Virus record (IMG/VR): IMGVR_UViG_3300009181_000149
Location: 1-40,203 of that record
DNA from: a virus
Length of the DNA: 40,203 nucleotides
Reading direction: 5' to 3' (one strand)
Positions within the stretch are counted from its first letter, which is position 1, and the number at the start of each line of letters is the position of its first letter. The notes beneath the pieces are model-generated. The model was not told where the DNA came from and did not search any database. It saw nothing but the letters and a program-made list of their open reading frames with translations. A program made the position numbers and the translations under genes. Positions 8,624 through 37,366 of this stretch are shown here, piece after piece.

Positions 8624-8649
8624 AAACCCACCTAACAAGTGGGTTTTTT
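8624..8649 (+). terminator. Rho-independent terminator
   Basis: AAACCCAC (8624-8631) pairs with GTGGGTTT (8639-8646) around a 7-base loop. A run of six T residues ends at 8649. It isolates the 8086 gene from the baseplate block. Confidence 0.88.
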
Positions 8650-8682: not shown

Positions 8683-8686
8683 TGAT

Positions 8687-9148: not shown

Positions 9149-9153
9149 TTGAT

Positions 9154-20062: not shown

Positions 20063-20971
20063 ATGGCATTAGGAACATACGGAACGGTTAGACCTGCAGA
20101 TGTATCCCCACAAGACGTGGATATTATTCTGAATTACACACCATCAAGGGACGTGACCAATAATTTTGTGTTAAAAAAATTAAACAGCGCGAACATTTTA
20201 ACACCTTATTATCACAATGGAGATACTGGTGGGGTTGCGGGTAAAGAAATATTAGGTGGTTTATATAATCTTAGATTACCAGCAAATGAATTTAATCGAG
20301 TTGGTATATATACCTTATATATTAAACCAGCAGAAATAAGAACAACTATCACCGATTGTGGCATATTATCGGCATTACCTAATGTTAAGGGAATAATAAT
20401 CAACATAAATGACGTACCTGAGCAATATAGGAATAAATTCACAAATCAAGGACTTGTTGGTTTTAGGATTGAATATTTAAATAGTGATGGAACAAAGATT
20501 CCTAATTTTTATAGACTTGTTACGTCTTCTTTTTATTGTGAACCAATCGTTACAGACCAAACAAACACATCGCAAAAATCAATTAGATATAGGTATTTGG
20601 ATAGTGGAAGTGATTTGTTATTTTGTACATTATCACCATCAGCATCACCAACAAATAAACCAAGTGCAACACCATTTATAGGACAACCAAACCAACGAAT
20701 TATTGTTAGTAATACTTTCTTTAATCCGATAACAATGGATATTCAAATTGCTGATCACGATATAGATACGTTGGCAATCGCACTTTATGGTAACCAAACT
20801 AAAAGTATTGAAGACGGCATATACACATTATATGATAGTGCTGGTAACATATATAAACAATACAACTTATTTGAAGTTAGAGACAACTTTAATGAACTAT
20901 TATATGAGGTTAGACAAGATAGGGGTCTTAATATCGATTTCAGTAAAAACTTTACAAATATTATTAGTTAA
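20063..20971 (+). CDS. Unrecognised structural protein (302 residues)
   Basis: No family recognised. The protein starts MALGTYGTVRPADVSPQDV and is beta-rich. A short Ser/Pro/Thr linker (SPSASPTNKPSATP, about residues 193-206) separates two domains, echoing on a small scale the Thr/Pro tracts of the adhesin genes downstream. The C-terminal domain ends in an amphipathic, charged stretch (ELLYEVRQDRGLNIDFSKN). It is coupled to the next gene by a TAATG overlap. Baseplate or fibre-connector role by context. Confidence 0.75.
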   Translation: MALGTYGTVRPADVSPQDVDIILNYTPSRDVTNNFVLKKLNSANILTPYYHNGDTGGVAGKEILGGLYNLRLPANEFNRVGIYTLYIKPAEIRTTITDCGILSALPNVKGIIININDVPEQYRNKFTNQGLVGFRIEYLNSDGTKIPNFYRLVTSSFYCEPIVTDQTNTSQKSIRYRYLDSGSDLLFCTLSPSASPTNKPSATPFIGQPNQRIIVSNTFFNPITMDIQIADHDIDTLAIALYGNQTKSIEDGIYTLYDSAGNIYKQYNLFEVRDNFNELLYEVRQDRGLNIDFSKNFTNIIS

Positions 20972-23900
20972 TGGCGAAAACTAAATTCATATGTCCATCA
21001 CCACCACCTGTAGGTTCGGGTACATTTTCTGACGATTTAGTTGGTTTACAATTAGTTTCAGGAGGAGGATTGACGCTTGGTAATTTTGAATTCACAACTT
21101 CGGTTTATGAAAAGGTAAGTAGAACTTTTGATACTGGTGTTTTTTCGGATCCATTTAATTTGGAGAATTTAAATATTGAAAGTATTGCCGAAACCAAACT
21201 TATTATTGAAAAAAACTTTAGAGTTTACCCTAATTTTGATTTAGCACAAATAACAAGTTTTTCATTATACGGATCACTAAGTAAAAGAATATCTGCTTCG
21301 GTTAATAGAGTTATTAATTATTTTCCTGCGGCGATTGAGGTTTATTATAGTAATTACATTTTACAAACGGGTAATACTGCATATAATATTACTTACAACA
21401 CAATTAATGATGAGACTACATTTGATACGGACTCTTCTTTTTTCAAAAATCCATTTGATATTGACTACTCGGTAAATGCGAAGATTAATGTTGATAATAG
21501 ACCGATACCGGTTTCAAAATACAGAGACATAACAAATAACTTTGAAAGTTTTTCATTATATGTTAATAACTTAAATACCGAATTTAATGTTGTTGATTTA
21601 GAACCAACACAATCCGTTACAGGAGGAACATTGACGATAACCGTTAAAGGTAAACCATTTACCTCAACAACCACGACAGACACCTTAGTTATAAAACCAA
21701 ATAATTTAGTTACCGAACAAATATTTCAGGATGCTTTTGATGAGGTTGAGGATTACATTTTAAATAGGAATGCGTACCCAAAATATACCGCAACATTTAG
21801 TTATCCGGATTATGACAGTAATGGTAATTATATTTTATTTAATAAGAGTTTAACTTGGAATACAGATGGTCTTTGGAATTTAGATATCAGGACCAATTAT
21901 TTTGATAATTATTTGACCGAATTACAGTATATTACAGAAAGATTGGATGAGTACAAAACAAACTTAATAAGTCGGTTTTTAACTTCAGGATCATTAAAGG
22001 AGTTTGATACGATAGACCAAAAAATTGAAAAAACATTACAGATTTATGGTAGAAGTTTTGATGAGACTAAAAAATTCATTGATGCTTTAGCAAACATTAC
22101 ATCGGTTAACTATATCGTAAAGAACGACATACCCTCACAACTATTAGGTAATTTGGCGGCAACATTAGGGATCGACCCTAATATTTCACCAATAACTAAT
22201 GATTCATTATTGGAGTCTATATTTACAACTACAAACGATATTATTTATCCGGGTCAATCTAAAGAACAGACACCCACAGAGTTAAACTATCAGTATTATA
22301 GGAATTTAATATTAAATGCTGGATTCTTATTTAGATCAAAAGGTACTCGCACTTCTATTGAGTATATTATGAGGATGATTGGAGCACCTGATGCACTAAT
22401 TGAGTTTAATGAATATATCTATTTAGCAGACCAAAAAATATCGGTAGATGATTTTTATGAAAAATATGCAAAATTATCAGGAGGTACCACATATGTTGAA
22501 ACACCAGTTTTAGATAGTACAAACATATTCTCAATATTAGGTACCCAATACACCGGATTTACAAAATCGGGAGTTGTGAATAGGACATTGGTTGGTTTAG
22601 AATATTACCCAATCAATATAAATACTGGTTACCCTGAACCACCAACAAATAACGACTCATTCTTTTTTCAAAAAGGTGCTGGATGGTTTGAAACCACACC
22701 GGATCACAGATCAGCAGAGGAGATTGATTATAACCTTTCTAATTTTTCAGTTTCACCATCAATTGTTATTACAAAATTAAAACCATTTACATACGGACAA
22801 GATTATATTGATAGATTTGATAAATTTCCATCTATGGATTTAGGTTATGGATTGACAAGAACGATTGATAATAAAAAATCTTGGAAATTAGAAGATATTG
22901 GGTTAAGAAAAAGTACAGACATTAACACACCAACTAACTATTTGATTGAAGATAGTGGTCAGGTTGTTAATGTTAAGAATATGGAATTGTATCTTAATAT
23001 GGGTCAAGGAATTACGTATGACATTTGGGAGATGTCTGCAAAATATGGGTACCCAATCCCTAATTCAGGGTTAACAGCACCATACCCAACACCAGGATTA
23101 AATGATTGGACGGTTATTGATCCAAAACCAAATCAAAAGACATTTTTTGAGTTCGCTCAAACATTCTATAATAATTTAATTAACGTTAGAAATAGACAAA
23201 CAATATCGGACGGTAAGACTGGTGGATATCCAGCATTACAGTCAATATTTTGGAAATACTTACAAACCGATCAAACATTAAACATACCAAACAATAAATT
23301 CACATACCAAAAAATGATTGATTTCACTTTGGGGTTAGGTGATTATTGGGTTAGGTTGGTTGAACAATTTGTTCCGGCAACCACAATTTGGAATACAGGG
23401 CAAAAAATGGATAACACCATTTTTAACAGACAAAAATTCGTATGGAGAAGACAAAGAGGGTGTACCTTTATATTCGGTGACCTTAAAAATACTGATTGCC
23501 TACCGTGTATTTATGATGGATCACCATACACATACGATTGTATTGATCAAACAACACAATGTAGTTTACCAACGTTTGATCCGGTTACGGTTTTAAATGC
23601 GAAAATAAATGATTTATATACGAGTAGTGGGTTTACAAGTGCTAACTGTGACTCAACGACGATGATATCGACGTGGTATGTTGATTTAACACTGACAGAT
23701 ACGGTCACAAATATTGAGGACACTTTAATATCTGAACCGTTTTATGTTGGGTACGGTCAAAGTGCTATAGATTTAACCACAGGATTACCTTTATCGTATT
23801 ATGATGTGATAAATGCGATTGATAGTAAATTACAGTATTTATATCAATACGGATTAAACTATTATTTTTCTGGTGGTGTTTTAACAATTAGTAATTCTAG

Positions 23901-23973
23901 TTGTTATGATAATTTTACAAATAAACAACTAAATCTATATATTGGTTTAGATTTACAAATTAATTGTGGTTAA
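20971..23973 (+). CDS. Large tail/baseplate protein with RSKGT segment
   Basis: A 1000-residue protein starting at a TAATG overlap. Residues about 443-480 contain [20 protein letters not shown] and a following G-A-P-D turn, resembling the conserved helix of gpI-type baseplate proteins (RSKGT...). Another conserved-looking stretch is [16 protein letters not shown] near residue 795. The last 140 residues form a Cys-containing module ending in LTISNSSC and then DLQINCG, which looks related to a module before the Thr/Pro stalk of the next gene. The product probably bridges baseplate and receptor-binding proteins. The family call is partial. Confidence 0.75.
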
Positions 23974-26750
23974 TGGCTTGTATTACAGGATTTACTAGTG
24001 GTGGTTATTATAATTATACCGATTGTTGTGGTGTAATACAAACAGGGTTTGCTAATAATTTAGATCCTGTTTGTATTAATACGACATATTCTGGATCAGC
24101 AGTTGGGTTAGTATTGAATATATCAAGTACGTGTACTCAAAATTGTAGTACAGGACCGTTAGGTTATACGTTTTCAGTCACAGGAGTCTGTGGTAACCCC
24201 ACAGGGACTGTAAGATTCACACCAACGGGAGGGGTGTCACCATACACGATAGATCCAATCTCACCATTGGGTAACGGTCTAACAGCACAAACAAACTCAA
24301 CACAAATAACCTTTACAGGCCTTACTGGTGGTACATACGTTTTTAAGTTAAACGACTCTTTAGGGTCACAAAATACCGAAATCTTTATAAATGTATTGGT
24401 TTCGAGTTGTTTTACCGCCAATATTTATGGAACTGAAGGGACTAGTTGTGGTCAAGACAACGGAACGTTTTATGTTAGTGCGACATCAGTAAATGCACCA
24501 TATAATGTTGTTATATATAGTGGTGTCTCTGATTATGTTAGGACAGATTCAGTACTTCAATTCCCTTATCAAATTGCTGGGTTACCGGCATCAACATATC
24601 ATACAGTTGTGTATGATTATGGATTGGGAACTGCTAGAACGGAGAATACTTTAATAACTGGTAGTACAAACATTAGTTATGGTTTATGGGTTGTTAATGC
24701 GGGTACTTGTGTTATTAATACAGGTAAAATTGCAGTAACAGGGATAACAGGTACAGGTCCGTACACGTATTTATGGTCAGACGGACAAACAACACAATTG
24801 GCAACCGGATTAACTGCTGGAAATTATTCAGTGACAGTTACCGATTTTTATGGGTGTTCGGTTACCCAATCAACAACAGTAGGAATTGCGGATCCAATAG
24901 GTGTATTATCTATAACACCAACAAACCCAACTTGTTTTGCGTCTGATGGATCATTATCTATAACAATGTCGGGAGGAACCTTACCTTATTTTTATTCGGC
25001 AAATACAGGTGAGGTCGGATACACCTTATCGAACACATTCACACTAAATTCCTTACCTTCGGCATCATATACCATTTTAGTTAGAGACGCAAACTATTGT
25101 CCTTATTATGTTACAACCGCCCTAAATACAATATCAGGGTTTAATGTTATTGGTAATACAATAACAAACTCAGTTTGTAACCAAAATAGTGGATCAATAA
25201 CGACATACATAAACGGACTTGTTGGGTTTTATTTATATGATTTATCAGGTTTAACAACAAATCAGAATTATAGTTTTTATACCCAAAGTCAAAACGTTAC
25301 GTTCCCTAATTTACCAAACGACACTTACCTTTTAACAATATCGGGTGAAAGTGCTGGTTGTGGTTATAGTCAAACATTATCTGTTAATTCTGTTGAGAAA
25401 TTTACTGTTGATGTTATAACTACAGGAGTAACTTGTGGATTAAGTAATGGTAGTTTTACGGTTAACGTTGGTACGGGATATACTAATTGGCCTGTTGGAG
25501 GACAATTAGATTATATTTTAAGTAATGGGGATTCAATTATTGATACAACACTTAGTTCCGTAACGTTTACCAATCTAACTACAGGTCAATATACGTTAGA
25601 TGTTAGAGATGAGGATAATTGTGTGGTATCTGAAACGTTTACAATAACCACCACACCCCAACTTGATAGTGCGGTTTACCCCACTAATTGTATATTTGGT
25701 GGTGACGGTAGTGCAAACGTCTCAATATATGATGGTACACCACCATTTACATATAGTTGGTCAAGTAATGTTAGTTCGGCACAAACGGGAAATACGGTGA
25801 CCGGATTGTCAGGTGGTTCATATACTGTTACCGTTGTTGATGCTTCGGGATGTACAAATTATCACACATTTCAGATTGACTGTACTTTTACAACCGTAAC
25901 TGGATTTACAAGATATAACATCTGTTCAAATAGTTTCACAACAACTTCGGGAACAAAAAGAGGCCTTTCTGAAATGATTAATGAGGGGTATTTAGACCTA
26001 ACTTCGGGTTATACTAACTGTGTACTTAACAGTGCCGACTTAGAGTGTGAGATCATTATAAACGGTAGTGCTTACACACAAACATTTTTTGTTACAAATG
26101 ACTCCACTTGGCAATCAACGATTGAATCAATATTATCATCAATCCCACAAGTCGGGGAGTATAGTGTGAATTTATTAAATAATACCCTACAAATACAATC
26201 AAATTGTGTGGGAGGAGTTGATCCGTTAGGAAACGCCAATTTTAGTTTGTCTTTAAATATTGATTACAATATTTCTTGTCAAAACATTTTACCGACACCA
26301 ACCCCTAGTCCGACACCAACCGCAACACCAACACCAACACCTAGCCCGACACCAACCGCAACTCCTGGACCAACCGCAACTCCTGGACCAACACCAACCC
26401 CTAGTCCGACACCAACCCCTAGTCCGACACCAACCGCAACACCAACACCTACCACAGTTTATTATACTTGGTTTTATAATGGATATTTATCGTATTCTTC
26501 AAGTGACAACACAGTATGTACCGCAACAGGTTGTTCACTTAAACTATATACATCAACACCAACAGTAATAGTTGGTACCGTATTATATACTAATCCGGCA
26601 TTAACAATACCGGCAGTTGGATTTAATGTTGGACCATCAAACGGAGGTTTTGGTAGATGTTATTTATCTAACGACTGTCCAATTGTTGGTACGAGATACG
26701 TAACACAAGTTAACGGTTCTGGTCAAGTATTAAATGTTTATTCGTGTTAA
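23973..26750 (+). CDS. Adhesin with seven SprB-like repeats and Thr/Pro stalk
   Basis: A 925-residue protein. I chose ATG 23973 because it forms a TAATG overlap with the preceding gene; a TTG nine bases earlier is less likely. Seven Ig-like repeats follow one another, each opening with Cys-x3-5-G and closing with a G-x-Y-x-V/L-x-V-x-D-x-x-G/N-C strand (clearest: [10 protein letters not shown], then [17 protein letters not shown]). They resemble the SprB repeat of flavobacterial gliding adhesins. A module related to the end of the upstream protein comes next, then a 55-residue Thr/Pro/Ser/Ala tract (774-828), then a Cys-containing C-terminal module ([17 protein letters not shown]) shared with the 31689 protein. 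Likely a long surface adhesin or fibre at the tail tip. Confidence 0.82.
26292..26456 (+). repeat. Thr/Pro hexanucleotide-type repeat (stalk)
   Basis: 55 codons built mainly from CC(A/T/G)-AC(A/C) pairs with Ser, Ala and Gly variants, giving a [13 protein letters not shown]-type chain. The six-base unit keeps the frame when copies are gained or lost. Confidence 0.9.
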
Positions 26751-26753
26751 AAA

Positions 26754-27038
26754 ATGGCATACTCGATAGACATAACCAATTTATCAGGAGGGACAGCACC
26801 TGTTAGTCTGTATGCTTGTGACGAATACGGTAATAACTGTACATTTTTAGGTTATAGTACTGGTATTTATATTTTACCGTCGTTATTACAGACGGCAACA
26901 ACCATTATGGTAAAATCGGTTGATAGTACGGGTTGTATCTTCTTTAAGTTAATAACTTGTGACGTTGAAACGTACGTAATATTAACAGAGTTAGGTGATT
27001 TCTTATCTACTGAGGGTGGCGATACTTTGGTTTTTTAA
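26754..27038 (+). CDS. Small single-domain Ig-like protein, copy 1
   Basis: A 94-residue protein that looks like one stand-alone beta-sandwich repeat: ITNLSGGTAPVSLYACDEYG at the start, a second Cys in the middle, IMVKSVDSTGCIFFKL toward the end. It shares this plan with the proteins at 27059 and 33319 (G-G/T-x2-P-x2-L/I-x2-C-D, then a D-S/T-x-G-C strand). It begins 3 bases after the adhesin stop. No signal peptide. Probably a virion decoration or fibre-tip subunit. Confidence 0.75.
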   Translation: MAYSIDITNLSGGTAPVSLYACDEYGNNCTFLGYSTGIYILPSLLQTATTIMVKSVDSTGCIFFKLITCDVETYVILTELGDFLSTEGGDTLVF

Positions 27039-27047
27039 TAACAAAAG

Positions 27048-27055
27048 TATTTATA
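27048..27055 (+). promoter_or_regulatory. TATTTATA box 3 bases before ATG 27059
   Basis: A perfect box, overlapping TATAAATA at 27052-27059. A TTTG lies at 27026-27029, 18 bases upstream. A start seven bases beyond a -10 here would fall on the ATG itself. Confidence 0.5.
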
Positions 27056-27058
27056 AAT

Positions 27059-27346
27059 ATGATAATCCAAATAACAGGAGATACGGGAGGACTAGAACCC
27101 TACGACATTTATTTATGTGACCCAACAAACGTGGCTTGTTTCTATATATCAGGACTAACATCTATACCGGCAACCGTTGAATTTGATAGTCAATATTATT
27201 TTCCAAACGAAGACTTATTATATTTACGGATCGTTGATACCAACGGGTGTGTTTATTCGACACCGCTGGATTGTGTTGGATTTAAGGCGTTCCAAGATGC
27301 TATATATTTTAAATTTATGGACGACATACCGTACGCATTCCAATAA
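27059..27346 (+). CDS. Small single-domain Ig-like protein, copy 2
   Basis: A 95-residue relative of the 26754 and 33319 proteins: GDTGGLEPYDIYLCDPTN at the start, ATVEFDSQYYF in the middle, LYLRIVDTNGCVYSTPLDC at the end. The C-terminal 20 residues (FQDAIYFKFMDDIPYAFQ) are hydrophobic and aromatic, unlike copy 3, and might dock it on a partner. It has its own upstream box, so it may be expressed independently of copy 1. Confidence 0.75.
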   Translation: MIIQITGDTGGLEPYDIYLCDPTNVACFYISGLTSIPATVEFDSQYYFPNEDLLYLRIVDTNGCVYSTPLDCVGFKAFQDAIYFKFMDDIPYAFQ

Positions 27347-27360
27347 AAAAAAAATTAATA

Positions 27361-27368
27361 TATTTATA
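27361..27368 (+). promoter_or_regulatory. TATTTATA box before the fibre gene
   Basis: A perfect box 9 bases before the ATG at 27378, preceded by a run of A residues (27344-27354). Confidence 0.5.
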
Positions 27369-27377
27369 AAATAAAAG

Positions 27378-29564
27378 ATGCCAACATATCAATTATTAAC
27401 GGACAGAACAATAGCTCAATCTACGGCGATTACACCCACTACGCTAATACATATCGTAACGACTGCAGACACAACACAAAGCATATATGGATCATCATTT
27501 AAAGTGGAATTACGACAGTTATCAACAATATTTAAAGATACGTTTGTTACTGGAGGAACGTATAGTTCGGGTACTGCAACGTTTACAAATAGTACTGGTG
27601 GTACATTTAACGTAACTGGATTTTTTACAGGAAATACGGACATTAGAGTAACGGGTGCGACCTATTCAAATAATTCTTTTACATATAGAAATAATACAGG
27701 AGGAACGTTTTCTGTATTATTTAATACTGTTACGGGTTTAACAACTAATGGTAATTTAACAGTTACAGGAACAACCTCATCAAATACTATTTCAGCAACA
27801 ACATACCAAAACTTACCGACAGATGTTAGAGTTACCGGTGGAACGTATTCAAACAATTCTTTTACATATAGAAATAATACAGGAGGGACGTTTTCTGTAT
27901 TATTTAATACTGTAACCGGTTTAACATCCACAGGAACTATAAGTAGTAATACAATATCTGCAACAACCTACCAAAACTTACCAACAGATATTAGAGTCAC
28001 AGGTGGAACGTATTCCGCAGGAACTATCTTATTCACTAACAATACCGGTGGGACTTTTAATGTAACCGGATTAACCACAGGATCAACATCTACCATAAGT
28101 GGGAATTTTTTACCATTAAGTGGTGGAACTGTGACAGGAAATACAATATTTACAAGTGGTTTAACCGCCAATACAATATCTGCAACAACATACCAAAATT
28201 TACCAACAGATATTAGAGTGACAGGGGCGACTTATTCAAACAATATTTTTACACATACAAATAATACAGGAGGAACATACAGTGTTTTATTTAATACTGT
28301 AACCGGTTTAACATCCACAGGAACTATAAGTAGTAATACGGTATCGGCAACAACCTACCAAAACTTACCAACAGATATTAGGGTAACCGGATCAACATAC
28401 TCTAATAATACGTTTACTAGTACGAATAATACAGGAGGAACATACAGTGTTTTATTTAATACAGTGACTGGGCTAACGGTTAACGGTGACTTATCGGTTA
28501 CAGGGAATACGGGGTTAGGAACCACATCAGCAAACACAATATTGGAACTCTATGGGGATAACGGATCAACGTTAAGGAATGTTTTAAGATTTACAGATTC
28601 CGACACAACTGTTGGTGTTGTTCCTCAATTTATAGGTAAATTAGAATTTAATGGTAACGAAACGAGTGGTACAGGGGTGAAATGTTTTATTGGAGGGATT
28701 CAAAATTCTGCAGCTCAAGGATCGTTGGTTTTTGGTACTACGGGAACAACAGGGTCACTAACAGGAGGAACACTAACCTCAACCGAAAGAATGAGAATTG
28801 ATAGTGATGGTAATGTTGGTATTAATGACACAACACCATCTTATAGGTTAGAAGTGTCATCTGGTGTTGAATCAGTTGATGAGGTAGTATCTCACTTTAG
28901 AAACGACGCATCAAAAGGGTTATTATTTATACCAGTGGCAAATAATGACTCATTTAACTTTAACACAACGTCAGGTGATACTGTATTGGTCTCCACGACA
29001 GGGCAACCATTGGTAATTGGTTCTAAAGATGGTGCTGCGTTTAGATTTAGTGGTGCAGCGGCGGCATTATCGGCAAATACAATAACAACCGGAAATAGAT
29101 TAGGAATTGGGTCGGTATTCTATTCAAGTACAGAACAACCATCGGAAGGTTTAGATGTTAACGGTAGTGCTAGATTTAGAGCGATAGGATCAACCGCATC
29201 GGCAGGTGCACTTCACTACACCGCAAACGGTACCCTAACAACAAATACGTCAGACCAAAGACTAAAAGAAAATATAGAACCACTTACAAATTCTTTATCT
29301 AACGTCTTAAAATTAAGTGGTGTTACCTATAATTGGATTGGTATTGAAGGTAAAAGAGTTGGTTTCATTGCACAAGAAGTTGAAAAAGTAATACCAGAAT
29401 TAGTATTTACCAATAATAATACTGAAGAAAAATACAAAGGTATCCATCAAGATAATATGGTTGCGGTTTTAGTTGAGTCAATCAAAGAACAACAAGAAAT
29501 GATAGAAGATTTAAAAGCGGAAATTACAAATTTAAAACTAAGAATTACTAATTTAGAATCTTAA
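27378..29564 (+). CDS. Tail fibre with repeats and S74 intramolecular chaperone
   Basis: A 728-residue trimeric-fibre-type protein. An N-terminal region of about 85 residues is followed by at least five imperfect repeats (about 55-74 residues each; core ATTYQNLPTDIRVTGGTYS), then a globular region with a fibre-like ERMRIDSDGNVGI motif. The last 104 residues are an S74 endosialidase-type chaperone: SDQRLKENI, then YNWIGIEGKRVGFIAQEVE, then a terminal coiled coil (IEDLKAEITNLKLRITNLE). By analogy the chaperone cleaves itself off at S625 after folding the trimer. This is a likely host-range determinant. The next gene is a glycosyltransferase, and sugar modification of this fibre is possible. Confidence 0.87.
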   Translation: MPTYQLLTDRTIAQSTAITPTTLIHIVTTADTTQSIYGSSFKVELRQLSTIFKDTFVTGGTYSSGTATFTNSTGGTFNVTGFFTGNTDIRVTGATYSNNSFTYRNNTGGTFSVLFNTVTGLTTNGNLTVTGTTSSNTISATTYQNLPTDVRVTGGTYSNNSFTYRNNTGGTFSVLFNTVTGLTSTGTISSNTISATTYQNLPTDIRVTGGTYSAGTILFTNNTGGTFNVTGLTTGSTSTISGNFLPLSGGTVTGNTIFTSGLTANTISATTYQNLPTDIRVTGATYSNNIFTHTNNTGGTYSVLFNTVTGLTSTGTISSNTVSATTYQNLPTDIRVTGSTYSNNTFTSTNNTGGTYSVLFNTVTGLTVNGDLSVTGNTGLGTTSANTILELYGDNGSTLRNVLRFTDSDTTVGVVPQFIGKLEFNGNETSGTGVKCFIGGIQNSAAQGSLVFGTTGTTGSLTGGTLTSTERMRIDSDGNVGINDTTPSYRLEVSSGVESVDEVVSHFRNDASKGLLFIPVANNDSFNFNTTSGDTVLVSTTGQPLVIGSKDGAAFRFSGAAAALSANTITTGNRLGIGSVFYSSTEQPSEGLDVNGSARFRAIGSTASAGALHYTANGTLTTNTSDQRLKENIEPLTNSLSNVLKLSGVTYNWIGIEGKRVGFIAQEVEKVIPELVFTNNNTEEKYKGIHQDNMVAVLVESIKEQQEMIEDLKAEITNLKLRITNLES
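27639..28510 (+). repeat. Five imperfect tandem repeats in fibre gene
   Basis: Units begin at 27639, 27822, 27987, 28209 and 28374 (spacings 183, 165, 222 and 165 bases, all whole codons). A stretch of over 35 bases containing GTAACCGGTTTAACATCCAC is identical between units 2 and 4, which points to recent copying. A weaker unit lies just upstream near 27547. Confidence 0.85.
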
Positions 29565-29570
29565 AATTTA

Positions 29571-29599
29571 TTTACAAACAATTTTCAAAACACTATTTT
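29571..29599 (+). promoter_or_regulatory. Possible promoter for the glycosyltransferase pair
   Basis: TTTACA (29571-29576), 17 bases, TATTTT (29594-29599). The predicted start, about seven bases on, coincides with the ATG at 29606, so the mRNA would be leaderless. Confidence 0.4.
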
Positions 29600-29605
29600 T
29601 AGTTT

Positions 29606-30844
29606 ATGAAAATATTTATTCAGATTGCTGCTTATAGAGACCCCGAATTAATACCAACCATCAAATCCTGTATAGAAAACGCAAAACATCCAGAAAATTT
29701 AGTTTTTGGTATTTGTAGACAATTTCATCCCGATGATAAATTTGACGATTTAACTGAATATGAAAAAGATGATAGGTTTCGTATTTTAAATGTTCCTTAT
29801 CAAAACTCAACCGGAGTTTGTTGGGCTAGAAATCAAGTACAACAACTATATAAGGATGAGGAGTTTACATTACAAATTGATTCTCATATGCGGTTTGAAA
29901 AAGAATGGGATGAGACCTTAATTGGGATGATTAAACAACTACAAGAGATTGGAGTACCAAAACCATTATTAACTGGTTACGTCTCTTCTTATGACCCAAA
30001 AACATATCCTGAAGGTCGGGTTAATGTGCCTTGGAGAATGGTGTTTGATAAGTTCATACCCGAAGGTGCGGTTTTCTTTTTACCCGAAACAATACCAAAT
30101 TGGCAAGACATAACAATACCTGTACCCGCAAGGTTTTACTCGGCACATTTTTGTTTTACATTAGGTCAGTTCTCAAAAGAAGTCCAACACAACCCCGAAT
30201 TTTATTTTCACGGAGAAGAGATTTCGGTAACGGTGAGAGCGTTTACTCACGGATACGATTTATTTCACCCCCACAGAGTTGTAATATGGCATGAGTACAC
30301 AAGAGAAGGAAGAACCAAACAATGGGATGACGATAAGGAATGGTATATTAAAAATGAAAACTCACATTTATTAAATAGGAAACTGTTTGGTATGGATGGA
30401 GAAAAACAAGAAGGTCACGAAGGTAAATACGGTTTAGGAAAAGAAAGAACATTAAGAGACTATGAAAAATATTCTGGTTTATATTTTGAGAAAAGATCAG
30501 TACAGGAATATACATTACAAAAACAATACCCACCAAACCCCGATATATTGGATAATACAGTGTGGGAAAATAGTTTTTCAACAACATTTAATTATGAGAT
30601 AAAATTAAATAAAGATAGTTTTACTGAAAATGATTACGATTTTTGGGCCGTAATTTTTCACGATGAGAATAATCAAGAATTATACCGAAAAGACGCAACA
30701 GAAAACGAGATACCATTTTTACTATCTAAAGATGAAATAACAATAAAAAGAGAGTTTTTAACCTATTCAAAACCAAAAGGATGGACGGTTTGGCCCCACT
30801 CAAAATCAAAAGAATGGTTAGAAAAAATAACAGGAACAATATGA
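29606..30844 (+). CDS. GT60-type GlcNAc transferase-like glycosyltransferase
   Basis: A 412-residue glycosyltransferase resembling the 'GlcNAc' family (PF11397, CAZy GT60) as I recall it: MKIFIQIAAYRDPELIPTIK start, a GICRQF strand, QIDSHMRF with D92-S-H94 as the likely metal/nucleotide-sugar motif, and YFHGEEISVTVRAFTHGYDL followed by HPHRVVIWHEY (about 200-231) as acceptor/catalytic region. Known eukaryotic members transfer GlcNAc from UDP-GlcNAc to Thr of Thr/Pro-rich mucins or to hydroxyproline. About 110 extra C-terminal residues of unknown function follow the catalytic part. No signal peptide or membrane segment, so it would act in the host cytoplasm. It is flanked by fibre and adhesin genes, whose Thr/Pro tracts are candidate substrates, and overlaps the next gene by 4 bases. 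Confidence 0.82.
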   Translation: MKIFIQIAAYRDPELIPTIKSCIENAKHPENLVFGICRQFHPDDKFDDLTEYEKDDRFRILNVPYQNSTGVCWARNQVQQLYKDEEFTLQIDSHMRFEKEWDETLIGMIKQLQEIGVPKPLLTGYVSSYDPKTYPEGRVNVPWRMVFDKFIPEGAVFFLPETIPNWQDITIPVPARFYSAHFCFTLGQFSKEVQHNPEFYFHGEEISVTVRAFTHGYDLFHPHRVVIWHEYTREGRTKQWDDDKEWYIKNENSHLLNRKLFGMDGEKQEGHEGKYGLGKERTLRDYEKYSGLYFEKRSVQEYTLQKQYPPNPDILDNTVWENSFSTTFNYEIKLNKDSFTENDYDFWAVIFHDENNQELYRKDATENEIPFLLSKDEITIKREFLTYSKPKGWTVWPHSKSKEWLEKITGTI

Positions 30845-31632
30845 TAAAAACCCCAACAATTGTGACAGCACTTTTTGATATAGGTAGAGATAAATGGTCT
30901 AACTATGGATTGTCTTACCATACATATATGATGTGGATGAGGAATTTACTATATTTTGACACAAATATGGTTATATACACTGAAGAAAAATTTAAAGATT
31001 TTGTAATAGACCAAAGAAAACAAATCGACCCGAACTTAGAAAAAACCATAGTTATTACTGACACTTTAGATAATTTAAATTCCTATCAAATGTTTTACGA
31101 TGAGGTTAAAACATTAATGGAGGATGAGGGATTTAAAAATAAAAGACATTTTAATGTTCCTGAAATGACAGAACCCCTTTATAACATTATTATTTTTAAC
31201 AAATTGTACTTTATTAAACGATCAATAAGTGAAGGTCATTTTAATTCTGATATGTTTATTTGGTGCGATGCTGGTGTTTTAAGAGACGGAGAGCCATTAA
31301 TTAAAAAAGGGTTCCCCAACTTAAATAAGATTAATAATGGGTATGATAAACAAATAACATTTTTTAGTCACCACGAAGAATTCTCAATTAACGATAGACC
31401 TTTTCACCTATTTTCACAGTTTAGGTACATTCACGGAGGTTGTTTCTTTGTCCCAAACAATAAAAAAATTGATAAATTAATAGAAAATTTCAATACGTTA
31501 GTTTCCGAACACCTAAAAAATGGGTATGTTGGTAGCGAAGAAAAGTATTTAGATTTTTGTTATTTAGATAACAAAGACGAATATAACATAGTTAAATCGG
31601 ATTGGAGACAATATTTTGACCTATTTAGTTAA
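30841..31632 (+). CDS. HtrL/YibB-type putative glycosyltransferase
   Basis: A 263-residue protein matching the HtrL_YibB family: PTIVTALFDIGRDKW at the start, NMVIYTEE (about 42-49), and IWCDAGVLRDG with W141 and D143-A-G145 as the probable active-site motif. Family members are found in sugar-polymer loci and are thought to be glycosyltransferases. I chose ATG 30841 because it overlaps the previous stop in ATGA; a longer in-frame start at 30781 lies inside the previous gene. Coupling to the GT60-type gene suggests that the two add successive sugars to the same target. Confidence 0.8.
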   Translation: MIKTPTIVTALFDIGRDKWSNYGLSYHTYMMWMRNLLYFDTNMVIYTEEKFKDFVIDQRKQIDPNLEKTIVITDTLDNLNSYQMFYDEVKTLMEDEGFKNKRHFNVPEMTEPLYNIIIFNKLYFIKRSISEGHFNSDMFIWCDAGVLRDGEPLIKKGFPNLNKINNGYDKQITFFSHHEEFSINDRPFHLFSQFRYIHGGCFFVPNNKKIDKLIENFNTLVSEHLKNGYVGSEEKYLDFCYLDNKDEYNIVKSDWRQYFDLFS

Positions 31633-31661
31633 AATAACCTACAATAAAATAAACTTTTGAT

Positions 31662-31669
31662 TATTTATA
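31662..31669 (+). promoter_or_regulatory. TATTTATA box before the second adhesin cluster
   Basis: A perfect box 19 bases before the ATG at 31689, followed by a 16-base palindrome. Confidence 0.45.
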
Positions 31670-31672
31670 TTA

Positions 31673-31688
31673 TAAAGTTTAAACTTTA
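31673..31688 (+). promoter_or_regulatory. 16-base perfect palindrome abutting ATG 31689
   Basis: TAAAGTTTAAACTTTA reads the same on both strands and ends at the base before the start codon. It could be an operator for a dimeric regulator or a small RNA hairpin that affects initiation. Confidence 0.4.
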
Positions 31689-33314
31689 ATGGCTAATTTA
31701 AAATTTCAGGGGTGTTGTTACCCCGGATATCAATACGTAACACTAGACACATCTTGGGTCGCTACCGGAGGTACCGCAACCACAGGTCTAACATATCATT
31801 TCTCAGGTGACCCTGTGGTCCCTAATGGGTGTTATACTATTGTTTCTGCGTTCACATCGGGGTTTAGCTCAACCACATTTACTACCTTAACCGGGGTATA
31901 CACGATACAAGCGAATTGTTCATCTGCTTTGTGTTCAACAGGTAATTGTTGTAGTAATATTTCGTGCATTAGTATACCACTTAATCAATATTCAGGGATA
32001 TCAGGAACATACCGTGTTTCGGGTAACTATAACGGTTACCCTTTTTGGACGGGAGGTACAACACCTGGTTATTTATTTTTTAATTCATCAAAATGGTGTT
32101 TATCGTCAGGTTTTAGTTCCTCGTGTATTTTTTATGGTGCAGAACCCACAACCGCAATTTGTCCAAATATTGATGAAACGGTATTATATAGTGGTACGTG
32201 TTTCCCAACACCAACACCATATGATCCGTGTTCTATATTGGATTTTGATATTGTATTGGAATGTGCGTTTCCTACACCGACCGCAACCCCAACACCAACA
32301 CCAACACCAACACCCACTCCTACACCGACCGCAACCCCTAATATTTGTTCTGGGTTTACGGTCGGAATATCGTTTTCAGCTGTAACACCAACCCCTACAC
32401 CGACACCAACCCCTACACCGACTCCTGTGGTATACCCATACAACATTACTTCTGGTGTGACGTTTGTTATTGATAGTGGTAATTTTGTTTGTGTTAATGT
32501 GAACAAATTAGTGGACTGTAATAGTAGTGATGTATATTTTGTTTCGGGACCTATAATATTTACAGGATCACCAATTACCACAGGAACTACCATTTTGGCG
32601 TTAATTAACGATCAATATAAATGTTTAACATATACCGAAAACACTTTTGGTAGTCCGGCCGATTATTTACAAGGAGTAGTTAGTATTCAAGCAAGTGGAT
32701 GTACGGGATGTGTTGCACCAACACCTACACCGACCGCAACTCCAACACCGACACCTACACCAACCCCTACCGCAACTCCGGTACCAACACAAACATACCC
32801 AACAAATACGGTATTCGTGTTCACTTCTTGTACAAATACATCAATGATAATACAATACTCATACCCACCATCAAACGTTACTGTTGGGGGTATATTAAGA
32901 ACTGTTTCAGGTGAATGCTACACATATATTGGGGACTACTTATCGTACACACCACCATCTGGATTTATATGGTCTTATGTTGAAACATTTACAGCAACAA
33001 CCGCAACAACATACACTAATTGTGTATCTTGTTTAACCCCTACACCAACACCAACACAATCATATAATTTATGGAGAGGTCGTGGTGAGTTTTCAGTTTC
33101 TTGTCCTGTTTGTGAATTAACAAATGGTGGATCACAAATGACATTCTATACGTCAGCTTCTGATTCTGTATTACAAAATGATGTGTATGTTTATGAAAAT
33201 CAATCATTGACGACACCAGTAATTGTTGATTATATAAAATATGGAACTAAAATATATAACGTAGATGTTAATGGAAAATTAACTGAATTTTGTACAGTAA
33301 ACGGAAATTGTTAA
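31689..33314 (+). CDS. Cys-rich modular adhesin with Thr/Pro tracts
   Basis: A 541-residue protein in which small Cys-bearing beta modules alternate with Thr/Pro tracts: a short one near 172-177, then residues 195-217, 233-246, about 344-369, and about 450-457. Modules tend to end in a C-x2-C pair just before a tract (GCTGCVAPTPTPT; NCVSCLTPTPTP). One module (NGYPFW, then SSKWCLSSG) recurs in the 33549 protein. The C-terminal module (MTFYTS; VYVYENQSLTTPV) matches the end of the 23973 protein. There is no signal peptide or membrane anchor. Likely a surface stalk or adhesin of the virion, and a prime candidate substrate for the two glycosyltransferases encoded just upstream. Confidence 0.8.
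   Translation: MANLKFQGCCYPGYQYVTLDTSWVATGGTATTGLTYHFSGDPVVPNGCYTIVSAFTSGFSSTTFTTLTGVYTIQANCSSALCSTGNCCSNISCISIPLNQYSGISGTYRVSGNYNGYPFWTGGTTPGYLFFNSSKWCLSSGFSSSCIFYGAEPTTAICPNIDETVLYSGTCFPTPTPYDPCSILDFDIVLECAFPTPTATPTPTPTPTPTPTPTATPNICSGFTVGISFSAVTPTPTPTPTPTPTPVVYPYNITSGVTFVIDSGNFVCVNVNKLVDCNSSDVYFVSGPIIFTGSPITTGTTILALINDQYKCLTYTENTFGSPADYLQGVVSIQASGCTGCVAPTPTPTATPTPTPTPTPTATPVPTQTYPTNTVFVFTSCTNTSMIIQYSYPPSNVTVGGILRTVSGECYTYIGDYLSYTPPSGFIWSYVETFTATTATTYTNCVSCLTPTPTPTQSYNLWRGRGEFSVSCPVCELTNGGSQMTFYTSASDSVLQNDVYVYENQSLTTPVIVDYIKYGTKIYNVDVNGKLTEFCTVNGNC
32271..32426 (+). repeat. Two Thr/Pro repeat tracts
   Basis: 32271-32339 encodes 23 residues, including a pure CCAACA hexamer run near 32289-32313. 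32385-32426 encodes 14 Thr/Pro residues. A Cys/Phe-bearing spacer of 15 residues separates them. Confidence 0.9.
32718..32795 (+). repeat. Thr/Pro repeat tract
   Basis: 26 codons of alternating Pro and Thr with two Ala and a Val-Pro-Thr-Gln end, directly after a C-x2-C pair. A last short tract follows near 33036-33059. Confidence 0.88.
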
Positions 33315-33318
33315 AAAT

Positions 33319-33534
33319 ATGTCAACACAAATATCATTAACCGCAACAACAGGAACATTACCATTAAATCTTTGGATTTGTGATATGACAGGATCAAGTG
33401 CGACTTGTGTTTATTACGACACAATATACACATTACCATACAGTTTTATATTACCATCGGTATATGAAACGTACCCATCATATACTTTAAAACTTATAGA
33501 TTCTAATGGATGTATATATGAGGAATCAACTTAA
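33319..33534 (+). CDS. Small single-domain Ig-like protein, copy 3
   Basis: A 71-residue relative of the 26754 and 27059 proteins: TATTGTLPLNLWICDMTG at the start, LPYSFILPSVYE in the middle, YTLKLIDSNGCIYEE at the end. It stops right after the last strand and lacks the C-terminal extensions of the other two. It begins 4 bases after the adhesin stop, the same arrangement as copy 1 behind the 23973 adhesin. This repeated pairing suggests that the small protein is a partner or cap of the adhesin. Confidence 0.75.
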   Translation: MSTQISLTATTGTLPLNLWICDMTGSSATCVYYDTIYTLPYSFILPSVYETYPSYTLKLIDSNGCIYEEST

Positions 33535-33548: not shown

Positions 33549-35156
33549 ATGGCAGGATATAGTGCAAATACATGCGATATTATTACATTGTTCCCTTTAG
33601 GGGTACAATGTAGTGTTACTAGTGCATATACACCATTTACAGTTGATGGTGCAATCGCATTAATAATAACAGGAGGTACCCCACCTTATAATATTACTTG
33701 GGAAAATGGTTCTCATTCACAAATACTTGCGGGTGTTGGCGCTGGAGATTACACATCAACAGTCACTGACTATTATGGTGATTTTACCGCAACCACAACT
33801 TGTACCGTACCTTATAGTACTTTTTATTTAGAGGAATTCTATAATTGTAATGACGTTAATAGTAAAATTTATTATGTTGCAAATTTAGAGAACCAAACAC
33901 AAACAGGAGTAACATTTACGATTAATGCTCAATTGGGGTGTTGGGTAGGAAATGGATTAACGTTATATTCGGGACAAACATATTATAATTATAATGTTAT
34001 TACATCATCCGGACCATTTAGTTCTTGTACCGAATGTTTACCAACAACCCCACAACTAGAAAGTACTTCAGGTTTATGTCTCACAACAACATCTTACGCT
34101 GGTTTTCCTGTGACTGTAACGACTAATCAATATCAATTCTACTCCGCAAGTACAATCAATGGATACCCATCTTGGTCAAGTAATACATTAACTATGTATT
34201 ATAATACAGGGGCAACACAATGGATGGTTTCTGGATGGACGAATCCGGGTATACCATTACTACAATCAACACTGTCACCACCAATTGGTATTTGGACGTA
34301 TAATGGTGTTGCAGGATCCGCAAACGTAACTCAAGGGGCGTGTACATCCGCATTCCAAATAACCACAAATACAATAAACCCGACTTGTGAGGGAGTAAGT
34401 GACGGTAAAATAATAATAACATCGGTAGTTGGGGGAACATCACCATACACATACTCAATAAATGGGATATCATACCAATCGTCTAATATATTTTTAGGAT
34501 TGGCTGATGGGACGTATACCGTATATGTAAAAGATATCATTGGTAATGTTAGTACCAAGCAAGTGGTTTTAACTAATCAAACACCAATAACAAACTATCA
34601 AGTTACTTTAAATTTAGTACCACCAAACCCACCAGTCACAATCAGCACAGGATCAAGAGAAGCGACATATAATTGGGAAGTTGGGGTAACACCAACATTA
34701 CCTATAGGACGGGAAATTAATTTTACAATTTTCCATACATCATCTTTTTCTGCTGGGACTTCAGCATCTGCAAATCCAACACTGATATACGTTAATACCA
34801 CAGGAACAACAGGTGGTGGACAATATTTAACGTCATCACAAACACAAACAACAAATAATTTCACAACAATCGATTGTCACCCTAACTTTTATACGACAGG
34901 AATTACTAGAATATATACGGCTAAAATCGTCGGCACAGGTAAGGTTACGGGTCAAGTCTTTATGAAAGTTGTAGCACCCAATGGTGATAGTAATTGTGCT
35001 CCATACGCTAAGATAAATGATAGTATTACGGTGAATGGTACCGTATTGGTTAATGGTGGACCGTGTGAGACGGTAATAACACCAATAAACACGTTAAGTT
35101 TTGGTCTTAGTAAACAAGGTAATCTTGTTATTAACCCATTAAACCCTAACGCATAA
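33549..35156 (+). CDS. Adhesin-like protein with SprB-like repeats
   Basis: A 535-residue protein. An SprB-like repeat (GGTPPYNITWENG, then GVGAGDYTSTVTDYYG) occupies about 38-85. A Cys module ending in CTECLPTTP (to about 166) follows, then a module with NGYPSW and WMVSGW shared with the 31689 protein. A second SprB-like repeat (GGTSPYTYSINGI, then GLADGTYTVYVKDIIG) is at about 295-330. The C-terminal half is a beta-rich domain with a Thr-rich loop. It has no long Thr/Pro tract. Probably part of the same receptor-binding apparatus as the other adhesins. Confidence 0.78.
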   Translation: MAGYSANTCDIITLFPLGVQCSVTSAYTPFTVDGAIALIITGGTPPYNITWENGSHSQILAGVGAGDYTSTVTDYYGDFTATTTCTVPYSTFYLEEFYNCNDVNSKIYYVANLENQTQTGVTFTINAQLGCWVGNGLTLYSGQTYYNYNVITSSGPFSSCTECLPTTPQLESTSGLCLTTTSYAGFPVTVTTNQYQFYSASTINGYPSWSSNTLTMYYNTGATQWMVSGWTNPGIPLLQSTLSPPIGIWTYNGVAGSANVTQGACTSAFQITTNTINPTCEGVSDGKIIITSVVGGTSPYTYSINGISYQSSNIFLGLADGTYTVYVKDIIGNVSTKQVVLTNQTPITNYQVTLNLVPPNPPVTISTGSREATYNWEVGVTPTLPIGREINFTIFHTSSFSAGTSASANPTLIYVNTTGTTGGGQYLTSSQTQTTNNFTTIDCHPNFYTTGITRIYTAKIVGTGKVTGQVFMKVVAPNGDSNCAPYAKINDSITVNGTVLVNGGPCETVITPINTLSFGLSKQGNLVINPLNPNA

Positions 35157-35182: not shown

Positions 35183-37366
35183 ATGTCATATATTATAAAA
35201 ACAACAAGTGGATTAATTAATACGATATTAACAGACGCAGCAAGAAAAAAGATATCACAAGGAAAGTTTGACATCTCTTATTTTCAGGTGGGTGATAGTG
35301 AGGTTTGTTATAATTGCATATCAAACCAAAATTATGTTAATTTAAATATTTTGGCACCACAATATAATGCGGACAATTTAGTACCAGCACCTGAATATAA
35401 TCGATTAAATGTAAAATATCCATTATTTGTTGATCCAAATTCGGGTAGTACTTTTGGTATCCCTTACGACTCATCTTTTGTTGATAACATTTATAATTCG
35501 GCAGCACCTAGAGGTTTTTTTACCGGTAATACTCTATATACGACATCAGCATATACTATAAACCCTAACTTTATTGTGGGTAATAGTAGTTTAGTGTCAG
35601 GAAATACAATTGTGTTATCAGCAAATACAGTTAACGCTTCAGTTTCGGGTACGGTAACTCCTGGTATGTTCTTAACCTTATTTACAAGGACATATAATGC
35701 GTTAAGTGGAAGTTCACCTATGTTTACATATGTGGTTGTTGGTATTACAGGAAATACGTCAACAGCAAGTACAGTTACGGTACGAGTAGATAGACAACTA
35801 CCTAATTTCTCATCTATGGGTTATAGTGGAAATAGTAATGTAGTTTTTTATCCGTCAGGGATGACAGTTATTTATGATTCGGTAACACCCGAACCGTATT
35901 GGGCAACAAATGTGTTTAATTTTGAGACTAACTGTGATGTTTCACAAAGTGATGTAAAAGTTTGGAATATGAACATTCCGTGGACTGAATCACCGGCAGG
36001 GGTATTCAATAATTCAGTACAAAATTATAATTATTATAGTGCATCGACATATGTAGGAACTAAAGAATATTTAGGTTACAAAACAAATGACGGACAAGTA
36101 GATACCGGATCAGTGTATTTTAATAATTCGATGGGTGATAAAATAGTCGTACCACCGGTAGATCAAAAAGCGATAGCAATTGTTCACTATACTAACCAAT
36201 CTATTGATAATTTTTATGGTGAAAAATTCGCACAACAAGAGTATGATCCTGCGAATCCAGGAGCAACAGGACAAGCAAGAAATTTAAAGATTGGAATTCC
36301 ATGGTTAATGTGGCATAAAAACCCTAACAGAACGATAGGAGAATATTTTTATACAGACCCTAGTGGGTTTACCGAAGACCTATTTCAAACGTATTATATT
36401 AAGTCTAAAAAAAGTGCGGACTTTAATAATCCGGGTATTAGATATTATAACCTTTGGGATACTCACGTAACATCAACAGGGTTCCCTAATCGAGTAGGTA
36501 AAGTTTTTCCTGATTTAAAAATGATTATTTTTGATGATGATGAAATTGTGTCATCTTTAAATTATAAAACAAACAGATCTTGGACGTTACCGGCACCAAA
36601 AGTAGGAACAATTATACCAAACGCGTGTGATGGTGTATTGGGTGATACTGAAGGGTTAGTTAGTGCCAATACTGAGTCGGTGTTTGTTACATATAGATTC
36701 AATAATTCCGCCTTTACAAACTCCCTACATTGTAATTACTACACAAAACAAACACCTATACTATACGACCCAACACAAAGCACTTACAACATATTTTTAA
36801 AATTTGGAAATGAGTTCTCATTTTTGAAGTCAAACACCTCAACAACACCAACAGGATTCACCGCAAATGAAATGAAAGTTCTTGTGCAGAAAGTTAGTAG
36901 TGGAACCACAAGACCTATTCCGACACAATGGAGAGAAATTAATGTTATGAGTCAACTATCGGCAACAACAACAAGTGGATTCTTAACGTTGAGTGGGTTA
37001 ACAGGAACCACATTCCAAATAACAAAAGATATGTATGATAACGCATCAATATATAATCTATCCAACTATATTAATATGCCGACACTTAATCAGTCAGGGG
37101 TGACATTAAATTTCGGAGGAGAATATTATTTTTACGGTACAATTCAAACGGATATACAGGCAACAATATATGTTATGAATTATCTTTGTAATTTAGGACA
37201 AACCCAATTTTTAAAATCATCTAACCCAACTTGGGACGGAACACCACCTTATGTGACGGAAGTAGGTCTTTACAATGCAGATAAAGAACTTATGGTTATT
37301 TCTAAGATACAATCACCTGAAAAAAGACAGGGGATCCAACAGTATCCAGTTAAACTTGATTTTTAA
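35183..37366 (+). CDS. Tail fibre/baseplate-like protein (727 residues)
   Basis: The N-terminus (IIKTTSGLINTILTDAARKK, then FDISYFQVGDSEV) has the look of phage tail-fibre or baseplate-attachment domains that begin with a helix and an 'xVGDG' strand. The centre is Asn/Ser/Thr-rich beta sequence. The C-terminus (YVTEVGLYNADKELMVISKI) resembles the tail-fibre 'EiGLYDxxGxLi' motif. No membrane segment. It is the last structural gene of the cluster and stops 6 bases before the RuvC-like gene. I would expect it at the fibre-baseplate junction; the family assignment is tentative. Confidence 0.75.
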   Translation: MSYIIKTTSGLINTILTDAARKKISQGKFDISYFQVGDSEVCYNCISNQNYVNLNILAPQYNADNLVPAPEYNRLNVKYPLFVDPNSGSTFGIPYDSSFVDNIYNSAAPRGFFTGNTLYTTSAYTINPNFIVGNSSLVSGNTIVLSANTVNASVSGTVTPGMFLTLFTRTYNALSGSSPMFTYVVVGITGNTSTASTVTVRVDRQLPNFSSMGYSGNSNVVFYPSGMTVIYDSVTPEPYWATNVFNFETNCDVSQSDVKVWNMNIPWTESPAGVFNNSVQNYNYYSASTYVGTKEYLGYKTNDGQVDTGSVYFNNSMGDKIVVPPVDQKAIAIVHYTNQSIDNFYGEKFAQQEYDPANPGATGQARNLKIGIPWLMWHKNPNRTIGEYFYTDPSGFTEDLFQTYYIKSKKSADFNNPGIRYYNLWDTHVTSTGFPNRVGKVFPDLKMIIFDDDEIVSSLNYKTNRSWTLPAPKVGTIIPNACDGVLGDTEGLVSANTESVFVTYRFNNSAFTNSLHCNYYTKQTPILYDPTQSTYNIFLKFGNEFSFLKSNTSTTPTGFTANEMKVLVQKVSSGTTRPIPTQWREINVMSQLSATTTSGFLTLSGLTGTTFQITKDMYDNASIYNLSNYINMPTLNQSGVTLNFGGEYYFYGTIQTDIQATIYVMNYLCNLGQTQFLKSSNPTWDGTPPYVTEVGLYNADKELMVISKIQSPEKRQGIQQYPVKLDF

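Follow-up and report, generated by a model that had tools for sequence, protein, structure and literature searches.

The window analysed here, a 40,203-nucleotide stretch of DNA, is a piece of a large aquatic phage in which two glycosyltransferase-type genes sit between two proteins with Thr-Pro tracts. All of the genes considered lie on the plus strand. Two conserved proteins of the tail or baseplate region, one of 1000 residues (20971-23973) and one of 727 residues (35183-37366), serve as neutral markers. The intervening genes encode a 928-residue protein with SprB repeats (PF13573, 4e-14) and a C-terminal Thr-Pro tract (23964-26750); a small beta-domain protein (26754-27038); another small protein of this type (27059-27346); a tail fibre with a C-terminal S74 chaperone domain (27378-29564; PF13884, 4e-18, and PHROG tail fibre families); a GT60-type glycosyltransferase (29606-30844); an HtrL/YibB-family protein (30841-31632); a 541-residue Thr-Pro-tract protein (31689-33314); and a second SprB-repeat protein, a syntenic neighbour that has no tract (33549-35156; PF13573, 1e-11). 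Where relatives encode a small protein related to that at 26754-27038 directly 5' of GT60, it often has a Thr-Pro tail. The initial annotation had described a GT60-type gene and a coupled HtrL gene between two Thr/Pro-tract proteins, and the reading frames, coordinates, ATGA coupling and Pfam matches all agree with this description. Because the protein at 27378-29564, between the two tract proteins, is an S74-chaperone tail fibre, we regard the locus as a tail-adhesin region, and the window is best explained as part of that region of a jumbo phage. The phage host is probably, if tentatively, a member of the Bacteroidota. Both tract proteins are putative virion adhesins and candidate glycosylation substrates, the 541-residue protein being the main candidate.

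The tract of the 928-residue protein comprises 55 residues, Thr/Pro with a few Ser, Ala or Gly among them (26292-26456), and DNA repeats are also present there. A tract scan of the 541-residue protein identified three conserved tracts that join its other segments (32271-32339, 32385-32426 and 32715-32780), and a further short TPTPTPTQ lies near 33040-33060. Runs of [TSA]P reach a length of 14 in both proteins and did not exceed 6 in any of 5000 composition-preserving shuffles, and the window tracts have the long repeated Thr/Ser/Pro-rich segments beyond chance expectation that are one of two marks of a mucin-like domain, dense O-glycosylation being the other. Thr and Pro codons are mixed inside the tracts, which are therefore not pure short DNA repeats. 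Among about 40 orthologues of the 541-residue protein (41-78% identity), tracts 1 and 2 keep their positions (residues ~185-215 and ~220-250) and the third is in the same place in most (~340-365); in one orthologue (L210) the tracts are almost absent. An antisense open reading frame for a 153-residue Gly-Val protein (32132-32593) was set aside as a reverse reading of tract DNA.

The GT60-type gene encodes a soluble protein of 412 residues (ATG to TGA) that matches PF11397 ('GlcNAc') at 2.4e-67 and 228.4 bits, relative to a curated Pfam cut-off of 21, and PHROG 24687 ('glycosyltransferase') at 1e-157. In an alignment of 54 phage sequences, the DSH metal motif at residues 92-94 (D92/S93/H94) and the pair W228-H229 are invariant. 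The AF2 model (pLDDT 92.1) contains an extra beta domain at the C terminus, at about residues 315-412. The leading PDB matches of this model in Foldseek are GT27 polypeptide GalNAc-transferases (2ffu, 3e-11), and several of the matched structures hold UDP and mucin peptides. As modelled, the enzyme has a GT-A fold akin to that of the polypeptide GalNAc-transferases, the starters of animal mucin glycosylation. GT27 enzymes act on Thr/Ser in Pro-rich peptides and share a DxH-type metal motif with the phage enzyme; however, identity is 10-18%, the phage protein has no visible ricin lectin domain and is not in a Golgi, and the likeness is one of fold only. By analogy, the enzyme is a putative user of UDP-GlcNAc as donor and of Thr or hydroxyproline as acceptor.

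The HtrL frame begins at an ATG at 30841 that overlaps the GT60 stop codon (ATGA). Its product matches PF09612 (HtrL_YibB) at 9.4e-27 and 94.7 bits (cut-off 24.1) but scores 104.9 bits against the NCBIfam YibB equivalog model, below the cut-off of 264.9, and is therefore an HtrL family member rather than YibB itself. The AF2 model (pLDDT 92.7) matches retaining GT-A transferases in Foldseek at 1e-5, suggesting a putative glycosyltransferase with a GT-A-like fold. The GT60-type assignment of the initial annotation was supported, with a predicted fold closest to GT27 for GT60 and a GT-A glycosyltransferase-like fold for HtrL. Single-sequence and profile searches of PDB sequences with the two proteins returned nothing or kinetochore-subunit noise.

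We assessed how often GT60 and Thr-Pro tracts occur together across genomes. Of 13 independent long phage records, 9 have their one GT60 gene no more than 2 kb from a tract, whereas random placement of GT60 in these records gives an expectation of 0.70 (tail probability 6e-10); this genome-wide test is inflated because tracts and adhesin genes tend to be clustered within a phage genome. A tract is present within 2 kb in 20 of the 32 GT60 clusters with 5-kb flanks, and in clusters that have a tract the nearest one is always on the strand of GT60. A within-locus test gave a mean rank of 0.22 (p 1e-5), with a bias that arises because the loci are centred on GT60. When contigs were chosen by the Thr-Pro pattern alone, PF11397 was found in 9 of 50, in 5 of them within 2 kb, compared with 0 of 40 Thr-Ala control contigs (p 0.004). 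Contigs of the window clade chosen by a neutral tail protein have GT60 in 48 of 52 cases, nearly always directly 5' of the Thr-Pro protein. The adjacency of GT60 to Thr-Pro tracts is non-random, and the pairing that the initial annotation expected in related phages is found in the long records, the clusters and the clade contigs alike.

The association has exceptions in both directions. No tract lies within 10 kb in 8 of the 32 GT60 clusters with full flanks, the tracts of three records (G006, G016 and G017) are 22-67 kb from GT60, and one record (G005) has GT60 but no tract. Conversely, 41 of the 50 Thr-Pro-pattern contigs have a tract but no GT60 that we could find, as does the 270-kb record G012, and four related contigs (L119/L172, L132/L169, L170 and L173) encode Thr-Pro proteins with no GT60 in the 30-53 kb that they cover. 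The initial annotation had held that widespread occurrence of the transferases apart from any Thr/Pro protein would count against its proposal; this applies only in part, to the distant and tractless loci. An impression that most loci of the 64-68% GT60 group are tractless came from 20-residue windows, and was overturned by a shorter definition and whole-record scans.

The enzymes at this locus are exchangeable. In L188 and L191 the tail proteins are 97-99% identical (99% for the Thr-Pro protein) and the GT60s are just 52% identical; the enzyme has therefore been exchanged while its slot was kept. When GT60 is replaced, it usually gives way to another GT60. Elsewhere, GT60 stands first and a long HtrL last in gene runs that hold GT10, GT11, GT7-C, GT25 and FkbM genes between them; GLF is also among the cassette genes, and the cassettes of XacN1 and Jiulongibacter include a carbamoyltransferase. 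Such GT60-to-HtrL runs recur, and enzyme exchange happens at a fixed locus. The slot exchange, the multi-gene glycan cassettes and the bacterial relatives described below form a larger picture that was absent from the initial annotation. A part for hydroxyproline, mentioned there as an acceptor of eukaryotic GT60 enzymes, found no support: a PF13640 2OG-dioxygenase is present in 5 of 19 records and never beside GT60, the closest being 4 kb away in a record without tracts. We rejected the hydroxyproline route as a general mechanism because these dioxygenases are missing from most records.

Some bacterial GT60s also adjoin Thr-Pro/Ser-rich proteins. Those at four loci (L484, L485, L490 and L502) have twin-arginine-like N termini, judged by eye from an RRxF/L motif with a hydrophobic stretch after it, with no NCBIfam Tat model above its cut-off. 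The partner proteins have little in common except the tract, and at the majority of bacterial GT60 loci no tract lies close by. Strong PF11397 matches occur in 1 of 396 Bacteroidota genomes, the seed genome itself, and this survey is unusable for an adjacency test because the family is too rare there. The Tat pathway exports proteins already completed in the cytosol, so Tat-like signals on the Thr-Pro proteins fit cytosolic glycosylation.

Because GT60 repeatedly adjoins Thr-Pro-tract proteins in many phages and some bacteria, it is probable that these phages place a sugar coat on portions of the attachment proteins they encode. The reading that we favour, with somewhat better than even confidence, is that soluble phage enzymes O-glycosylate the Thr-Pro stalks of the adhesins before these are assembled into the virion. 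The two glycosyltransferases would be made in the host cytosol, presumably late in infection. GT60 would move a first sugar, by GT60/GT27 analogy a HexNAc, from a nucleotide sugar to Thr in the tracts of the flanking adhesins, and HtrL may then attach a second; in relatives, the extra genes could supply fucose, galactose, methyl, carbamoyl or sulfate groups. The sugared tracts would form extended, protease-resistant stalks between folded domains prior to virion building, and swapping enzyme genes would alter the glycan type while leaving the adhesins unchanged. The case for the tracts as the acceptor is one of association. A broader proposal, to our minds short of an even chance, is that GT60 and HtrL represent an undescribed cytosolic mucin-type O-glycosylation module, in which a soluble polypeptide transferase and variable extenders decorate Thr-Pro tracts before Tat export in bacteria or virion assembly in phages, the phages swapping enzymes to change glycan type.

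The same gene arrangement could also arise if the enzymes glycosylate virion proteins away from the tracts, such as the small beta-domain proteins, the S74 fibre or a head protein, with the tracts being flexible linkers. Even where no tract is close, GT60 loci adjoin fibre-like genes and small proteins like that at 27059, the GT60 of the 64-68% group is retained at some loci where tracts are short or absent, and the four related contigs noted above have tracts but no GT60. However, GT60 adjoins tracts in unrelated lineages, including bacteria whose partner protein shares little else, and its fold is nearest to enzymes that act on Thr/Ser/Pro-rich peptides, so that we judge off-tract targets unlikely. 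Rather less likely still is that there is no biochemical link, and that recombination hot spots at tail adhesins gather both low-complexity Thr-Pro linkers and glycosyltransferase morons. Recombination at the locus is evident, and tracts also occur in contigs where no GT60 was found; yet GT60 accompanies Thr-Pro and not Thr-Ala tracts, its usual replacement is another GT60, and the pairs are also found on bacterial chromosomes.

Two further alternatives place the acceptor outside the virion proteins. Alteration of a host surface glycan (capsule or LPS) during infection, for superinfection block or release, would suit the occurrence of HtrL in bacterial LOS/LPS loci (PMC4172580) and the resemblance of cassettes with GLF, GT10, GT11 and GT25 to surface-glycan clusters. 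We consider it improbable, as the characterized members of GT60/GT27 use polypeptide acceptors, a scan of cassette genes brought no membrane flippase or gtrAB-like gene to notice, and the transferase genes sit among virion genes. Glycosylation of phage DNA, which phage glycosyltransferases often perform and for which the C terminus of the long HtrL gives a weak TAGT match (0.004-0.06), seems very improbable given the peptide-acting fold and family, the placement of the genes inside the tail module and the lack of any recognized base-hypermodification gene in the window.

Glycosylation of adhesin tracts has partial parallels. Secreted cellulases of bacteria and fungi bear O-glycans on Pro-Thr linkers which, like the phage tracts, join folded domains, although we know of no dedicated neighbouring GT60 in those systems. 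The GT60 polypeptide alpha-GlcNAc-transferases, those of the Dictyostelium Gnt1/Skp1 pathway and the trypanosome mucin initiators, share PF11397 with the phage enzyme, which differs in being phage or bacterial, in having no adjoining prolyl hydroxylase, in its HtrL second enzyme and in its extra C-terminal beta domain. In the protist Skp1 pathway a soluble cytosolic initiator is followed by galactosyl- and fucosyltransferases (PMC8724618), an initiator-first order resembling that of the GT60-first phage cassettes.

The initial annotation went too far in knowing of no such phage system: the glycosylation of phage virions as such has precedents, because glycoproteins, at least two, have been reported in the virion of the jumbo phage XacN1 (PMC5852040). 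The XacN1 GT60 is 43.7% identical to that of the window, with an HtrL-like gene downstream and Thr-Pro tracts at the end of the neighbouring ORF325, but this phage belongs to another group and infects Xanthomonas, its GT60 is ~9 kb from the tract gene, and the tie of its glycoproteins to the tracts or to GT60 is not experimental. Mycobacteriophage virion glycosylation has also been published (Freeman et al. 2023, as cited in PMC12619734) and likewise involves phage glycosyltransferases; as far as that citing account goes, its glycans are on capsid and tail proteins, at the C termini of capsid and tail-tube proteins, whereas here the candidates are adhesin tracts. The window shares with phage virion glycosylation systems a glycosyltransferase gene beside virion genes. 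Our searches of the open-access literature found no papers on phage GT60 or on phage Thr-Pro-tract glycosylation.

Only a few phages with glycosylated virions have been described, and the targets mapped in them are capsid and tail-tube proteins. If the favoured reading is correct, a dedicated peptide transferase for adhesin stalks, shared with bacterial Thr-Pro-rich proteins, would represent a simple counterpart to mucin-type glycosylation that works outside a Golgi. Such an enzyme would account for the GT60 and HtrL genes of many jumbo phages, give the uncharacterized HtrL family a testable role and bear on protease resistance or receptor finding by phage adhesins. As a soluble O-glycosylation cassette it would be assayable in E. 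coli.

The 40,203-base virus record carries a contractile-tail and adhesin module flanked by replication genes (5'-3' exonuclease, DnaB-like helicase, RNR-like and DnaG-like). The central gene order starts with a 1000-residue tail protein (20971) and an SprB-repeat protein with a Thr-Pro tract at its end (23964). Next come two small beta-domain proteins (26754-27038 and 27059-27346) and an S74 tail fibre (27378), then the genes for a GT60-type transferase (29606) and HtrL (30841), which overlap at ATGA, and for a protein (31689) that contains three Thr-Pro tracts. It then runs through another small beta-domain protein (33319-33534) and a second SprB protein (33549) to a 727-residue tail protein (35183). 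The coordinates of the initial annotation were correct when checked against the window. None of 5000 shuffles of these proteins reached the observed Thr-Pro tracts, which use a mixture of codons. The three small beta-domain proteins are related to one another; among relatives, the member directly 5' of GT60 frequently carries a Thr-Pro tail, as in L015, L136, L175 and L057.

Both enzyme genes match their families (GT60, PF11397, 2.4e-67; HtrL, PF09612, 9.4e-27) and gave confident structure models (pLDDT 92.1 and 92.7). The leading PDB matches of the GT60 model are polypeptide GalNAc-transferases, several in structures containing UDP and mucin peptides, although the identity is only 10-18% and the TM-score about 0.5. 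Two motifs, the metal-binding DSH and a WH, do not vary among 54 phage GT60 sequences. HtrL is probably also a glycosyltransferase, because its model matches retaining GT-A transferases (XXYLT1, LARGE1 and blood-group GT6 enzymes; about 1e-5 to 1e-4). In many relatives HtrL is about 557 residues long, and in the bacterial locus L484 its second half matches Glycos_transf_2 (6e-6).

The initial annotation had proposed a search for the pairing of transferase and Thr-Pro adhesin in related phages, and three designs addressed it. When GT60 loci were clustered at 90% identity (57 clusters), a tract lay within 2 kb of GT60 in 20 of the 32 clusters with 5 kb on each side, the nearest one always on the GT60 strand. 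Among 21 whole long records, 20 contained PF11397, each as a single copy; with records reduced to one per group, leaving 13 independent ones, the gene lay within 2 kb of a TP octamer in 9 (expected 0.70; tail probability 6e-10), a result inflated by adhesin-gene clustering. Finally, PF11397 occurred in 9/50 contigs picked by Thr-Pro pattern alone (within 2 kb in five) and in 0/40 picked by Thr-Ala pattern, a comparison confounded by phage type and contig size. Chance placement is excluded; none of the designs proves a biochemical link between GT60 and the tracts.

Using the 35183 tail protein as a neutral marker, we found GT60 in 48 of 52 window-clade contigs, nearly always directly 5' of a 31689-type protein; the enzyme is orthologous (60-80%) in some and of a divergent type (about 40%) in the others. 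Between contigs L188 and L191, tail proteins are 97-99% identical and GT60 52%; for L193 and L199 it is the other way round. The slot stays constant and the enzyme is swapped, as in serotype switching. The exceptions (L119/L172, L132/L169, L170 and L173) have tracts and lack GT60 on contigs of 30-53 kb. Three of the four also lack the third tract, which is uninformative because the GT60 carriers L176 and L182 are without it too.

In other lineages, GT60 starts and a long HtrL ends a run of genes, enclosing FkbM methyltransferase, GT7-C and GT11 in L034 and GT10 in L021. The order in L039 is GT60, GT10, GT11, FkbM, GT25; L216 has a sulfotransferase-like gene and GT25 ahead of HtrL, and L174 has GT34. 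In the same slot L210 encodes a UDP-galactopyranose mutase (GLF, 1e-76; 4422-5525), which suggests that its glycan contains galactofuranose. A gene of 264-274 residues (MKIGAFYQSGHKLVACYKALEQLRKVYP...), with no Pfam match, follows the divergent GT60 type at L091:19579-20388 and L175:3894-4715 and may be another glycosyltransferase replacing HtrL.

The Xanthomonas jumbo phage XacN1 is reported to have at least two glycoproteins, for which its own transferases ORF328 and ORF334 were suggested (PMC5852040). ORF334 is a GT60, 43.7% identical to that of the window. These glycoproteins support virion glycosylation in GT60 phages, with no assignment to the GT60 enzyme or to tracts. In XacN1 and in RAS14, another GT60-bearing phage, GT60 shares a block with an HtrL-like gene, and XacN1 has an annotated carbamoyltransferase between the two; the block adjoins a giant gene encoding Thr-Pro tracts at its 3' end.

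The closest cellular GT60s include Bacteroidota contigs where GT60 and the gene for a Thr-Pro/Ser-rich protein are divergently oriented, the protein beginning with a twin-arginine-like sequence: L484 (NRRKALKTILGASS, with a T9SS tail), L485 (TRRRVLRSILSAS) and L490 from the isolate Jiulongibacter sediminis (NRRLALRELFLGSS), each with HtrL downstream within a few kb. An Acidobacteriota MAG (L502) has SRRTFVRRLAGG and tracts directly upstream of GT60, and a Prosthecobacter MAG (L505) a divergently oriented tract protein without a signal. These Tat-like signals were assigned by eye, no model scoring above its cut-off. Because Tat exports proteins already finished in the cytosol, such partners suit a soluble GT60. 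Since GT60 is rare in Bacteroidota (1/396 genomes), phages could be among its main carriers.

Taken together, the best explanation, which we hold to be somewhat more probable than its alternatives combined, is cytosolic O-glycosylation of Thr-Pro stalks on virion adhesins. The core of the initial proposal is retained; its acceptor, sugar and benefit we only infer. Glycosylation of phage virions as such has precedents. The apparent novelty lies in the family of the enzyme, the type of substrate, the exchangeable cassettes and the Tat-like partners in bacteria.

Several bacteria (L490, at 5942-6862 and 7965-9227; L487, L500, L508 and L511) have two GT60-family genes, in tandem or around a Thr-Pro protein, suggesting paired transferases; the second copy is about 30-41% identical to the window GT60. 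The C-terminal beta domain of GT60 (residues about 315-412; 30548-30841) may recognise the tract. Bacterial GT60s that adjoin Thr-Pro proteins (L484, L485, L490, L502, L505, L514 and L516) align over their full length, this domain included, and many that lack a match to it have no such neighbour. Elsewhere in the window, the product of 5870-7729 may be a divergent RNR, from a weak, partial match to the B12-dependent type (barrel 4.5e-9; insertion domain 9e-7), and the left edge (26-148) holds a GC-rich tandem repeat with a 48-bp unit and 96% match.
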